Shown piece after piece: positions 5,161-17,612 of a DNA stretch of 34,545 bases. The stretch comes from a virus: positions 1-34,545 of IMG/VR virus record IMGVR_UViG_3300035698_003349; one strand, 5' to 3'. The notes under the pieces were generated by a model. That model was not told the DNA's origin. It saw only the letters and a list, made by a program, of their open reading frames with translations, and searched no databases. Each line of letters begins with the position of its first letter. The stretch's first letter is position 1. The translations under genes were made by a program, and so were the position numbers.

Positions 5161-6003
5161 ATGGCTCGGCACAAAAAACTTACTGTGGATTATTTTCCCC
5201 ACTCCTGCACGCATGGACGAACAATGCAGATAATAAAAACAAAATATGGTAATAATGGAAGAGCTTTCTGGTGGACTCTTTTGGAAATAATCGGCAAAAC
5301 CGATAATCATATTTACGATACAAGTGATTCTCTAAAGTGGGAATTTCTGGTATCGGAAACGCTGGTTGATGATATTACTGCCACAGAAATACTTGATCTG
5401 CTTGCAAAATTAGAAGCGATTGATACTGAATTATGGGAAAATAAAATAATATGGTGTCAGCACTTTGTTGACGGAATAGCCGATGTTTATAGAAAACGGG
5501 GTGCAGAAATACCTCTAAGGCCGCCATCCTGTGACAGAAATAGCACAAGCAAGGGGCAATCTGTTACAGAAACACCACAAAGTAAAGTAAAGGAAAGTAA
5601 AGGAAAGGAAAGGAAAGAAACAAATATGGCTTTTTTGACTGCTCCTCATACAAAAGAATATCAGGAAGTAAAAGAAATCGCAACTCGTGTAATTGAACAT
5701 ATTAAAAAAGTATGCCACGTGAGTATTACGGCACACCCCCAAGCAATTTATATTATCGGCGAAAGACTTCTTGATGGCTATACTGAAAGGCAACTCTGCC
5801 AAGTTGTCAATACAAAGAGCAAAGACCCGAGATTAGGTAAAAACGATATGAGCCCCAAAACATTATTTAATAAAGAGAAAATAGGCTTTTATCTCGACGA
5901 GAATCCAAATAACTACGACAAGCCCAAAGAGAATATCACTCAACATGAAGGAGTCCACCCAGTAGGGGATATTTTAGGAGATGATTATGGACAGCCGTTT
6001 TAA
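5161..6003 (+). CDS. Phage replication initiator (Lin1244/Lin1753, DUF4373-like)
   Basis: 280 residues; ATG at 5161 after GAGGTGATTT. The N-terminal domain (3-112) starts RHKKLTVDYFPHSCTHGRTM and includes NNGRAFWWTLLEIIG, the hallmark of the Lin1244/Lin1753 (DUF4373) winged-helix domain of phage initiators. A Lys/Glu/Ser linker (about 138-155) is encoded by a purine-only repeat. The C-terminal part (165-265) ends with PKTLFNKEKIGFYLDE, matching the conserved C-terminal domain of phage initiators that contacts the helicase or loader. It would bind the origin, possibly inside its own gene, and recruit the helicase encoded 11 bases downstream. The coding DNA is distinctly AT-rich compared with the recombination genes upstream. 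Confidence 0.8.
   Translation: MARHKKLTVDYFPHSCTHGRTMQIIKTKYGNNGRAFWWTLLEIIGKTDNHIYDTSDSLKWEFLVSETLVDDITATEILDLLAKLEAIDTELWENKIIWCQHFVDGIADVYRKRGAEIPLRPPSCDRNSTSKGQSVTETPQSKVKESKGKERKETNMAFLTAPHTKEYQEVKEIATRVIEHIKKVCHVSITAHPQAIYIIGERLLDGYTERQLCQVVNTKSKDPRLGKNDMSPKTLFNKEKIGFYLDENPNNYDKPKENITQHEGVHPVGDILGDDYGQPF
5581..5620 (+). repeat. Purine-only short repeat inside the initiator gene
   Basis: About 40 bases made only of A, G and a few T, built from AGTAAAGTAAAGG, GGAAAGTAAA and three GGAAA units. It encodes the Lys/Ser/Glu linker of the initiator. Such repeats are common in this initiator family and could double as an easily melted or initiator-bound origin segment, as for lambda O; nothing here proves origin function. 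Confidence 0.4.
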
Positions 6004-8369: not shown

Positions 8370-9380
8370 GTGCTTGAAACCAACAAAACCCACGCCATTG
8401 ATGCCTTTGAAGGATTGAGCCTCTTGCCGGATAAGTGTATTGATTTGATAGTTACCGATCCGCCGTACAACATCAAGAAAGCGGCGTGGGATAACATACC
8501 GGATTATAACGCTTGGATGGGTAGGCTATTCGGTGAGTGTGAACGTGTCCTGAAAGACAACGGTTCTTTCTACTGGTTTCATAACGACATGCAGGTTATC
8601 GCTCAATTAATGGAATGGCTACGGATAAACACGGGCTTTGTTTTTAAGCAGATGATTACATGGAATAAAATAAGTGAGTCTTTCACTAATTATGGTTTTG
8701 TACAACAGAGGTTAAGTATTGATATGATGCGGAATTATTACAACGGTTTTACAGAATACATCCTTTTCTATACGTTTCAAGATGAGACGGGGTTAAAAAC
8801 CGTTATGCTTGATATGAATAATTTTACTACACTCAGACAGTATTTTAAGGAATTTCAAGAGGCGTTGGGTATTAACAAAAAAGAAATAATCGGCAAGATA
8901 GGGCAACAAGCAGACCATTGTTTCCGGTGGGGTTCCTCTCAATGGGATTTACCAACAGAAGAAACATATCAAGAGCTTTGCAAACTAACTTTAAAACATG
9001 AGTTCGTGCGCCGTGAGTATGAGGACTTGCGCCGTGAGTATGAGTTCGTGCGCCGTGAGTATGAGGACTTGCGCCGTGAGTATGAGGACTTGCGATATAC
9101 TTTTAATGCGCAGTGGGTAAAAGATGATTTGCGGAGCAACTCCAACACATGGCTATATCCGCCCGCCGAAAGAAACGGACACGCCACACCGAAGCAGATA
9201 GAATTGATAAAAAACATTATTCTGCATAGTTCAAATGAGGGCGATTTGATTCTTGATTGCTTTATGGGAAGTGGCACAACAGCAAAAGCATGTGAAGAAA
9301 CAGGCCGCAACTATATTGGCTTTGAAAAAGATGCTTGTGAATATATAGAATCGCAAACCAAACTGGAGTTATTCGGATAA
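8370..9380 (+). CDS. Beta-class DNA methyltransferase (N6-adenine or N4-cytosine) with repeat-containing insert
   Basis: 336 residues; GTG start at 8370 with GATGGGGA upstream. Motif IV DPPY is at 30-33 (IVTDPPYNI), and motif I FMGSGTT is at 298-304 near the C-terminus, with FEKD (318-321) binding SAM. The order motif IV, recognition region, motif I is that of the beta class. Between them, residues 211-241 are tandem heptapeptides EFVRREY/EDLRREY encoded by exact 21-base repeats. No restriction partner is nearby, so it is an orphan methylase that could protect phage DNA from host restriction. The middle part (8640-9000) is AT-richer than both ends. Confidence 0.88.
   Translation: MLETNKTHAIDAFEGLSLLPDKCIDLIVTDPPYNIKKAAWDNIPDYNAWMGRLFGECERVLKDNGSFYWFHNDMQVIAQLMEWLRINTGFVFKQMITWNKISESFTNYGFVQQRLSIDMMRNYYNGFTEYILFYTFQDETGLKTVMLDMNNFTTLRQYFKEFQEALGINKKEIIGKIGQQADHCFRWGSSQWDLPTEETYQELCKLTLKHEFVRREYEDLRREYEFVRREYEDLRREYEDLRYTFNAQWVKDDLRSNSNTWLYPPAERNGHATPKQIELIKNIILHSSNEGDLILDCFMGSGTTAKACEETGRNYIGFEKDACEYIESQTKLELFG
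9000..9094 (+). repeat. Tandem 21-base repeats inside the methyltransferase gene
   Basis: Four full 21-base units and an 11-base partial one: A (9000-9020), B (9021-9041), A (9042-9062), B (9063-9083), partial B (9084-9094). A and B differ only in bases 4-8 (TTCGT against GACTT) and share CGCCGTGAGTAT-like ends. Same-type copies are identical, which implies recent duplication or ongoing slippage. The period is a multiple of three, so copy-number change keeps the frame and only lengthens the helix. Confidence 0.95.
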
Positions 9381-11172: not shown

Positions 11173-11415
11173 ATGAAATTAACCAAAAAAAAGATGAAAA
11201 TGTTGCAGAAGATAAACCATAATTTATACTTTTCAATGCATGATCATGATGGATGCGAAAGAGACAATATAGATCAGTTACTTGTGGAAAAAGCCCGCAG
11301 ACAATTAATTAGCTTTATCTTCTCAGATAAGGGGAAAGTTGGTGGCTATAACAAAAGTATGGCGGGGCAAGGCGGGGCTCGGACGGGTATGGTCCGGCAC
11401 GGCGAGGTATGGTGA
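11173..11415 (+). CDS. Small protein whose C-terminus is encoded by the pentanucleotide array
   Basis: 80 residues; ATG at 11173 after AAAGGTGGGTTATT. Residues 1-60 are AT-rich in codon use, Lys-rich and helical (MKLTKKKMKMLQKI), with a DHDGCERDN stretch. From about residue 63 the frame enters the GG-Y-N-N array and the peptide becomes MAGQGGARTGMVRHGEVW, an Ala/Gly/Arg pattern repeating every five residues (15 bases being three array units). I have the impression that similar low-complexity tails occur in other phage proteins but cannot verify it. The array may have been inserted into, or read through by, a shorter gene. Function unknown. Confidence 0.5.
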   Translation: MKLTKKKMKMLQKINHNLYFSMHDHDGCERDNIDQLLVEKARRQLISFIFSDKGKVGGYNKSMAGQGGARTGMVRHGEVW

Positions 11416-11420
11416 GGTTT
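11361..11420 (+). repeat. Degenerate pentanucleotide array 1 (GG-Y-N-N)12
   Basis: GG recurs at exact 5-base intervals at 11361, 11366, 11371 and so on to 11416: 12 of 12 units. The base after GG is a pyrimidine in 11 of 12 units, while the last two bases vary (CGG, CAA, CGG, CTC, ACG, TAT, TCC, CAC, CGA, TAT, TGA, TTT). This is a strict phase with degenerate content, unlike a slippage microsatellite. GG-N3-GG-N3-GG-N3-GG is also the two-tetrad G-quadruplex pattern. Confidence 0.85.
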
Positions 11421-11455
11421 TCAAAACGATAACGCAGTAAAATAATACATTTCAG

Positions 11456-11515
11456 GGCGTGGCGCGATCCGGCTGGCTTAGACGCGGCCTGATGCGGCCG
11501 GGTGAGGCGAGGCAA
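11456..11515 (+). repeat. Degenerate pentanucleotide array 2 (G-R-Y-N-N)12
   Basis: Second 12-unit array, in register with a 5-base period: G at all 12 positions from 11456 to 11511, GG at 8, GA at 3, GC at 1, and a pyrimidine third base in 12 of 12. It is separated from array 1 by 35 AT-rich bases and lies outside any convincing gene, which argues against protein coding as the reason for the pattern. Confidence 0.75.
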
Positions 11516-11569
11516 TTATAAAAGCATTATAAACCACAAAACAAAAACAAATAGCGGAGACAGATCGCA

Positions 11570-15545: not shown

Positions 15546-17612
15546 ATGGATCCCTATGAACGACAGCACGTCCGAGACATGATCGGCTACAAAAAACGAG
15601 TAGCCCGAACGATCGACGATGCCATGGCAGACCTCGGGCGCCGCTTCACCACAACCAAGGGCCGTCGCTTCGCAAATGTCATGCAAGACCGCCTCGGAGA
15701 GTTACAGGAATCACTCCAGGGGACTATCGAGGGCGGAGCGAAGAATCAGTGGCATCTGGCAAACACGATGAATAACAAGAAAATCGATGGCTACCTCGGG
15801 GCCGTCAAGGTCTCCGATGCGATCCAGAAAAGCATGAGGGCGCCGAACGTCCCGGCGCTTAATGCGTTCATCGACCGGACAGTTGCGGGCAAGAATCTCA
15901 GCACCCGCGTCTGGGATTTCAAAGAGGGCGTCGCAGATGAAATGGACAAGATATTAAGCCGCGGCGTTCTGGTCGGCAAACCCGCCGTGCAGGTGCAAAG
16001 GGAATTGAAAAAATATATCAATGGCAAGCCGATTCTATACGAGGGAACGCTTATCAAGGCCCGGAACCTTACTTTCCAAGCAATCAGGCTGGCCGTCACC
16101 GAAACGAACATGGCATTCAGGTCCGCGGACTACCTCCAGAACAGCCGACTGCCGTTCGTGACAGGCGTTACCGTCCACCTGTCGAACGCACACCCACAGG
16201 AGGACATCTGCGACGAAATGCAGGGGCAATATCCCAAGGGTTTTTACTTCATTGGCTGGCATCCGTTCTGCTATGATAGCCAAACCGACGTTTACACCAA
16301 TGAGGGCTGGAAGCGGTTTAAGGATATCCGGGGCGATGAGCAGATATTGAGCCTGAATCCCGACACAAAAGACCTCGAATATACGACGATAGTCCACCGA
16401 ATAAAGTATCAATACGACGGGGAAATGATACGTTTCCATAGCCGGTCATTCGACATGATGGTGACGCCAGATCACAAAATGGTCGGATTTGATAAAACCA
16501 GCGGCAAACTCAGGGAATCATCGGCAGAAGAATTTTATCAGAATATGTACCCCATAAAAGGAAGAAATATATTTTCAACGAACAGCAAGTTATATCGGTC
16601 ATCGGAATGGAAGGGGACTGATATTCAAGGAATAACAATCGGGAAACACGATATTCCAGCCGATTTATTTTGTGAATTTATGGCCTATTATCTCAGCGAC
16701 GGCAGCATCAGCCGCAAATACGCTGTAATCATATCGCAATGGAAGAAAGCAAGCCCTGATCAGTATGAAATCATATCGGCTTGCATGGATAGGATGCAGA
16801 TAAAACACAAAAAATCAGAGAAAGGATTCTTTTTTTACGATAAGGACCTATGGGAATATCTTGCCAAATTCGGGAAATCCTACGAGAAATATATTCCGGA
16901 AATAATAAAGGAGCTCACTCCGGAACGTATAAATACATTCCTCAATGCCTATGTGTTATGCGATGGCAGTATCAGGTGTGGCAAAAAATGGAAGGGTGGA
17001 AACTTTCATGACGATCGCACATATACAACATCGTCAGAACGCATGGCGGGCGATCTCGGAGAATTAATTTTGAAAATAGGACATCACCCCTCATTTGCAA
17101 TCGGCTCCACGAAGGGTACGGTGACCAAGCACTGGAACGGCGAGTACGCATCGAATCACGACCAATGGGTTATAAGGGACTGCCGATCACAATACGCGAA
17201 CCAATTCAGCCGCGAGAAAATCCAATATTCCGGGTATGTTTATGACATCGAGATTGCCACGAATCACATCATTTATACCCGCCGGAATGGTAAATGCTCA
17301 TGGGGATCGAATTGCATCTGTTATTCCACATACGATACGATCAGCAAGGAAGAGTTCGTCAATTATATCAAGACCGACAAGATAAAAGCAAGCCGATTCA
17401 CGAAGCGGATCCCAAGCCGATCACAGAAGTATATCCAGAAAAACGGCGAGCGATTCCTGGATTACAAAACAACACCGTACTGGCTGCAGCAAAATTTCAC
17501 GAAAGGATTAGCACTCAGAGAGAGCATAAACATACCCATAACAGCGGGGAAATTGGAGATGATTCCCGAAGTTGAGCCGATTGAGAATATCACGAAAAAG
17601 AAAAGGGGATGA
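15546..17612 (+). CDS. Head morphogenesis (Mu F / SPP1 gp7-like) protein interrupted by an intein
   Basis: 688 residues as translated; about 340 after removal of a 348-residue intein (242-589). The N-extein (1-241) has the helical SPP1 gp7-like domain, GKNLSTRVWDFKEGVADEM, ARNLTFQAIRLAVTETNMA and the conserved FIGWHPF. The C-extein resumes CICYSTYDTISKEEFVNYI. Joined, the exteins read GWHPF-CICYS, restoring the HPxCxC motif that defines this family, so splicing at exactly this place should regenerate the functional protein. It binds the portal and enters the procapsid in a few copies, aiding early assembly and DNA exit in SPP1. Follows portal as usual, though separated by six small genes. Confidence 0.88.
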   Translation: MDPYERQHVRDMIGYKKRVARTIDDAMADLGRRFTTTKGRRFANVMQDRLGELQESLQGTIEGGAKNQWHLANTMNNKKIDGYLGAVKVSDAIQKSMRAPNVPALNAFIDRTVAGKNLSTRVWDFKEGVADEMDKILSRGVLVGKPAVQVQRELKKYINGKPILYEGTLIKARNLTFQAIRLAVTETNMAFRSADYLQNSRLPFVTGVTVHLSNAHPQEDICDEMQGQYPKGFYFIGWHPFCYDSQTDVYTNEGWKRFKDIRGDEQILSLNPDTKDLEYTTIVHRIKYQYDGEMIRFHSRSFDMMVTPDHKMVGFDKTSGKLRESSAEEFYQNMYPIKGRNIFSTNSKLYRSSEWKGTDIQGITIGKHDIPADLFCEFMAYYLSDGSISRKYAVIISQWKKASPDQYEIISACMDRMQIKHKKSEKGFFFYDKDLWEYLAKFGKSYEKYIPEIIKELTPERINTFLNAYVLCDGSIRCGKKWKGGNFHDDRTYTTSSERMAGDLGELILKIGHHPSFAIGSTKGTVTKHWNGEYASNHDQWVIRDCRSQYANQFSREKIQYSGYVYDIEIATNHIIYTRRNGKCSWGSNCICYSTYDTISKEEFVNYIKTDKIKASRFTKRIPSRSQKYIQKNGERFLDYKTTPYWLQQNFTKGLALRESINIPITAGKLEMIPEVEPIENITKKKRG
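16269..17312 (+). mobile_element. Intein with LAGLIDADG-type homing endonuclease
   Basis: Residues 242-589 of the head protein. Block A CYDSQTDVYTNEGW begins with the nucleophilic Cys242. Block B FDMMVTPDHKMV holds T307 and H310. Two endonuclease motifs follow: FMAYYLSDGSIS (D385) and FLNAYVLCDGSI (D473). Block F is YVYDIEIATNHIIYT, and block G ends WGSN589, followed by the +1 Cys590. The penultimate residue is Ser instead of the common His, which may slow Asn cyclisation. Both catalytic aspartates persist, so the homing enzyme may be active. The intein DNA is AT-richer than the exteins, consistent with acquisition. Confidence 0.9.

Follow-up and report, generated by a model that had tools for sequence, protein, structure and literature searches.

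The DNA considered here is a 34,545-nt stretch (the window), positions 1 to 34,545 of IMG/VR virus record IMGVR_UViG_3300035698_003349. The question that it raises is what is encoded by two 60-base arrays, each of 12 strictly phased pentamers, that lie between its large terminase gene and its portal gene (Table 1). The arrays have as neighbors the terminase and portal genes, a gene for an HTH protein, one small ORF, and two short ORFs, and the surrounding genes share the plus-strand orientation of the arrays. Comparison with similar arrays in other phages suggests, with a probability of about 85%, that the two arrays are VIPR-type guide RNAs (vrRNAs) in the sense of the operon. Confidence in their present function is lower than confidence in their identity as guides.

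The pentamers of array 1 are GGCGG GGCAA GGCGG GGCTC GGACG GGTAT GGTCC GGCAC GGCGA GGTAT GGTGA GGTTT, with GG in 12 of 12 units, a pyrimidine at the third base in 11 of 12, and the last two bases (NN) in the order GG AA GG TC CG AT CC AC GA AT GA TT. Those of array 2 are GGCGT GGCGC GATCC GGCTG GCTTA GACGC GGCCT GATGC GGCCG GGTGA GGCGA GGCAA, with G as first base and a pyrimidine as third base in 12 of 12 units and the NN order GT GC CC TG TA GC CT GC CG GA GA AA; its fraction of full GGY units (8/12) falls in the lowest 3% among the arrays surveyed. An earlier note, made from the letters of this DNA, had reported the same counts for both arrays, and these are confirmed. It had also proposed that a 5-nt period be weighed against shuffled sequence, and the period stands out in array 1, whose phase-strict score of 15.3 exceeds the best value, 6.5, among 200 dinucleotide shuffles of the whole window and is reached in 0 of 5000 shuffles of the region. 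Array 2 lies under the cut-off of the phase-strict scan and scores 6.8 in a later, laxer scan. Tandem Repeats Finder omits both arrays because their units differ.

Table 1. Arrays and neighboring RNA features in the window
Feature	Coordinates	Strand	Description
8-bp hairpin 28 nt upstream of array 1	11313..11332	+	RNA fold
Array 1, putative vrRNA 1 guide tract	11361..11420	+	12 phased GGYNN units (one GGA)
A+T-rich spacer after array 1; would-be 3' tail of vrRNA 1	11421..11455	+	predicted unstructured, RNA fold MFE 0 kcal/mol
Array 2, putative vrRNA 2 guide tract, less canonical	11456..11515	+	12 phased units: 8 GGY, 3 GAY, 1 GCT
Weak 6-bp A-U hairpin directly 3' of array 2; possible vrRNA 2 tail	11516..11532	+	RNA fold

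The upstream hairpin is not significant against shuffles (z -0.66, 71-nt stretch), and the fold of 11516-11569 is within the ordinary range (z -1.64). A shared structured 3' tail was not seen by RNA folding, as the first spacer is unstructured, the hairpin past array 2 is weak, and the two are unlike.

VIPR is described in a single preprint (PMC13142463; bioRxiv 10.64898/2026.04.26.720920, version of 25 June 2026), on which its key mechanism rests. As described there, VIPR consists of Vipr, a CRISPR-RAMP-like protein of ~20 kDa, and vrRNAs, which contain 9-16 YNNGG repeats plus an invariable structured tail and whose NN dinucleotides are hypervariable between relatives. A vrRNA of this class would be expressed as an RNA of ~100 nt bound by Vipr. 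Through binding and reporter assays of SUSP1 VIPR, that preprint shows that the NN dinucleotides recognize dsDNA while skipping one nucleotide, and it describes repression of competing phages, prophages, and satellites by the system. RNA processing, the one-base-skip code, and repression are all adopted here from PMC13142463.

Against the published unit of 9-16 tandem YNNGG with constant GGY, array 1 fits (12 units, 11 GGY) and array 2 fits less well (8 GGY). The SUSP1 vrRNAs (PMC13142463, PDB 36pp), as the preprint presents them, resemble the window arrays in their tandem YNNGG units, their 9-16 unit length, their constant GGY and variable NN, and their position between phage genes. However, the SUSP1 arrays border vipr and have a structured tail in common, whereas in the window neither vipr nor a common tail was seen, and the GGY content of array 2 is unlike that of the SUSP1 vrRNAs. 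Class 1 CRISPR, in which Cas7/Csm3 RAMPs act with crRNA, is a published analogy to VIPR, with RAMP subunits along a guide RNA and periodically skipped bases. It has a contiguous spacer, a repeat-flanked array, and several cas genes, whereas the window showed no identical repeats with contiguous spacers (Tandem Repeats Finder) and no Cas family among the scanned proteins. The arrays had been noticed in the bare sequence, without prior information, and they match a class of guide RNAs whose publication dates only from 2026. The earlier note had written of an "RNA-guide-like target"; the guide-like role is upheld, and the evidence points to guides rather than targets.

In the proposed mechanism, each array would supply the repeat tract of one vrRNA, oriented in the sense direction of the structural operon. 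One subunit of a Vipr (RAMP) filament would grip each GGYNN unit through its GGY and leave the NN exposed, and the NN pairs would jointly read a dsDNA target of the form xNNxNNxNN, with one base skipped per unit. A rival phage, prophage, or satellite read in this way would have its transcription blocked. For this phage, we infer that both arrays would act in this way, with a Vipr encoded in a missing part of the genome or supplied in trans.

GGYNN arrays occur in many different phages, as a pattern scan of IMG/VR for ten consecutive GGYNN units, a search of the kind called for by the earlier note, returned at least 120 stretches. In 30 whole records there are hundreds of GGYNN runs, compared with zero matches to a reversed control pattern. 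Pooled per-position frequencies are.97 G,.96 G, and.73 C/.23 T, with the two last positions nearly free, and the exact 5-nt phase holds over 12-141 units. All arrays lie on one strand in 87 of 88 multi-array loci. When the arrays are masked, most clusters (71/125) are flanked by co-oriented genes on both sides, and 8/125 clusters have one on neither side; arrays start a median of 13 nt past the upstream co-oriented gene's stop codon and end a median of 36 nt ahead of the next start codon. ORFs running into such arrays occur elsewhere, which bears out an impression, recorded in the earlier note, of similar tails in other phage proteins. The NN dinucleotides contain TA at 0.71 of expected and are strand-symmetric, which fits genomic targets and is not specific to them. 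A replication origin or packaging site was rejected, as the class is found between many kinds of genes.

Modules mostly contain 8-18 units, are often repeated, and are separated by hairpin-like spacers or by fixed short joints. In six loci (L004, L006, L009, L017, L025, L030), a fixed 4-nt step, GGCA followed by GGC, joins arrays and replaces the hairpins; such arrays may be the overlapping (staggered) vrRNAs named in PMC13142463. The inter-array spacers of L026 and L152 contain tRNA T-arm-like hairpins (ggttcgactcc; gggtgcgaatccc), which are possible RNA-processing signals, and ARAGORN found no tRNA genes in them. Rfam yielded no family for arrays or spacers among 12 array loci. An Rfam int-alpA RNA (RF02996) lies at 1635-1704 of L001 (minus strand), 2.3 kb from the arrays on the same phage contig.

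The arrays of other phages are linked to a protein family, and this linkage was checked independently of the lists in PMC13142463. An iterated profile of a 195-aa Felixounavirus family (phrog_4652), seeded with its 37% relative in L153, identified relatives in 83 of the 120 array loci listed from IMG/VR, always on the array strand and mostly ≤100 nt away. In the PDB, the profile has a single match, 36pp "SUSP1 Vipr protein" (E 3e-48). An AlphaFold2 model of one family member (pLDDT 97) retrieves Csm3/Cas7-type subunits in Foldseek with probability 1.00 and E about 1e-5. On the strength of the profile match and the predicted model, the family beside the arrays is made up of Vipr homologues with a RAMP fold. 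Among arrays in vipr-bearing loci, 331/332 lie ≤2.5 kb from vipr. An array in G017 lies 17.7 kb from vipr and one in G041 lies 2.1 kb from it, each on the opposite strand.

The Felixounavirus coliphages, to which a weak blastn match (E 7) pointed, show how array contents change. In the Felix O1, wV8, and NBEco005 group, GGTNN arrays surround two genes after DNA ligase, with two to five arrays detected per phage. The 62 arrays in ~18 phage loci include 53 distinct ones despite conserved flanks, and the distance between fixed flanks, taken modulo 5, is constant for a given flank type, at 0 or 3 (41/41). Array contents are replaced wholesale and the phase never slips. By eye, the hairpins before and after these arrays keep their loops and change their stems. 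Felixounavirus arrays resemble those of the window in unit, phase, array size, sense strand, and intergenic position, but they are GGT-rich and are flanked by conserved hairpins and the Vipr family. The Felix O1 genome paper (PMC3185647) lists direct repeats and leaves the pentamers unmentioned. Mosaic arrays were observed in L142 (43369-45110) and L145-L162, and certain guide cassettes turn up again at other positions in other Felixounavirus phages. The very many arrays, their linkage to a RAMP gene, and the in-phase guide turnover in Felixounavirus provide independent support for the description of VIPR.

A phage record near-identical to the window, L124, carries both arrays unchanged with identical NN contents, and its terminase is 100% identical over the part present; it is the only relative found with both arrays. 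The DNA fetched around the terminase genes of 16 other relatives (48-69% identical) contained no array, so the array position is not conserved in this lineage, and the conserved location next to terminase that the earlier note had envisaged is not borne out. A peptide-based INPHARED search for relatives returned none. Matches to the window terminase lie at ~50% in Bacillota-type genomes and at 53% in Marinitoga viruses, too distant for a host to be named.

Vipr was not found anywhere in the 34.5-kb window or L124: the best hmmsearch --max match had E 0.6, the best hhalign match reached 8.5%, and a genome search gave none, with a profile that might overlook remote Vipr types. Because the window is probably a fragment of a phage genome, vipr may lie in the missing part. 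Since nearly all arrays in vipr-bearing loci lie close to vipr, the vipr-less arrangement of the window is unusual. As Vipr and a shared tail are not shown in the window, its arrays are termed vrRNA-like guides, and the contig is not called a complete VIPR system. The kind of element is already known from VIPR, and its unlinked, possibly vipr-less location is the unusual part.

The arrangement is not unique to the window, as no Vipr was detectable in 6 of 30 whole array-bearing records. Orphan arrays adjoin an integrase gene in L057 (by eye), a DUF2460 tail gene in L073, and an M15 peptidase gene in L094. A divergent Vipr beside orphan arrays was considered and rejected, as the closest gene products were recognized as an integrase (by eye), a DUF2460 tail protein, an M15 peptidase, or a PIN domain, or had no assignment. 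It is tentatively suggested, at odds well below even, that a sizeable set of phages including this one carries orphan vrRNA arrays without vipr, with the Vipr of a prophage or co-infecting phage used in trans or decoyed. If so, VIPR guides would spread and be swapped between phages separately from their protein. The arrays that lie at a distance from vipr, or have none, raise the question of whether vrRNAs are used in trans or serve as decoys in some phages.

The rival reading that survives best holds that the arrays are decayed vrRNAs, gained from a VIPR phage by recombination and inactive since in a lineage without Vipr. The missing Vipr, the loss of GGY in 4/12 units of array 2, and the terminase relatives without arrays all favor it, but array 1 is intact (12/12 GG), both arrays remain in phase and unchanged in a second record, and the window is a fragment. 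Decay is considered unlikely, at perhaps one chance in a few. Less probable still is that the arrays are decoy or anti-VIPR RNAs, by which a vipr-less phage would tie up or divert the Vipr of another phage, resident or competing. This could account for the whole array-bearing records without detectable Vipr and for orphan arrays beside integrase, tail, and peptidase genes; however, these records may be fragments, and other Vipr types may escape the profile.

The earlier note favored a periodic nucleic-acid function over coding, and this stands. Its specific proposal of two-tetrad G-quadruplex elements, here regulating the operon, is not supported and is very improbable. G-quadruplexes tolerate loops of varying length and require no fixed phase. 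A 5-nt spacing of GG would permit two-tetrad folding, but such folding leaves unexplained the exact 5-nt phase over so many units, the pyrimidine after GG (73% C), the in-phase lengths of Felixounavirus loci, and the linkage to a RAMP gene. TRAP-binding leader RNAs contain about eleven (G/U)AG triplets, with a constant triplet and a 2-nt spacer giving a period of 5, as in the arrays. The TRAP ring protein reads the triplet, whereas in VIPR the spacer NN carries the information. TRAP-like ring binding, raised by the 5-nt period, was dropped because the VIPR paper and the linked Vipr explain the period, the free NN, and the variable array length.

A coding tail or expanded microsatellite has almost no likelihood. 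In its favor, a small ORF (11173-11415) ends inside array 1, and bacterial-genome matches to the pattern are mostly microsatellites and coding repeats. Against coding are the period of 5, which is not a codon period, the abundance of GGTAA/GGTGA units in Felixounavirus arrays, and the position of array 2, for which ORF inspection found no convincing sense gene. The median distinct-unit fraction of.75 in viral arrays against.17 in bacterial matches supports the earlier statement that strict phase with free content is not a simple microsatellite. Vipr is present beside the array in just 4/119 of the bacterial-genome stretches. These four, L176 (Fibrobacteres MAG), L182 (Patescibacteria MAG), L253, and L269, are probably prophages or mobile elements.

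Under the vrRNA reading, the targets predicted with a one-base skip, on the guide-sense strand, are GGnAAnGGnTCnCGnATnCCnACnGAnATnGAnTT for array 1 and GTnGCnCCnTGnTAnGCnCTnGCnCGnGAnGAnAA for array 2. In the sense direction these decode as G[KN]GSR[IM]PT[DE][IM][DE][FL] and VAP[CW]YALAR[DE][DE][KN], respectively, so both are readable as coding sequence. Patterns with 20-22 fixed bases matched nothing in IMG/VR, and 16-base sub-patterns gave 7, 7, and 2 matches there, which showed no extension and no common context and appear chance-like. A search of 35 genomes of an order holding a terminase relative found no target at ≤3 mismatches. Within the DNA fetched, guides read with the one-base skip had 8 matches at E<0.05 and shuffled guides had 3, a difference that is not convincing and does not independently confirm the one-base-skip rule.

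Elsewhere in the window, four copies of a 21-bp repeat (100% identical in the 42-bp register) lie at 9007-9094 inside an N6_N4 DNA methyltransferase gene and encode a charged REYEDLR-like repeat. A run of AAAGG/AAAGT pentamers at 5579-5617, within the replication-initiation gene, is an ordinary-looking microsatellite unlike the GGYNN kind. The 688-aa head-morphogenesis protein (15546-17612) has PHROG matches that include the Bxa ADP-ribosyltransferase family, and its residues 241-400 match a thymidylate-synthase family (PHROG), perhaps as a fusion or inserted domain.
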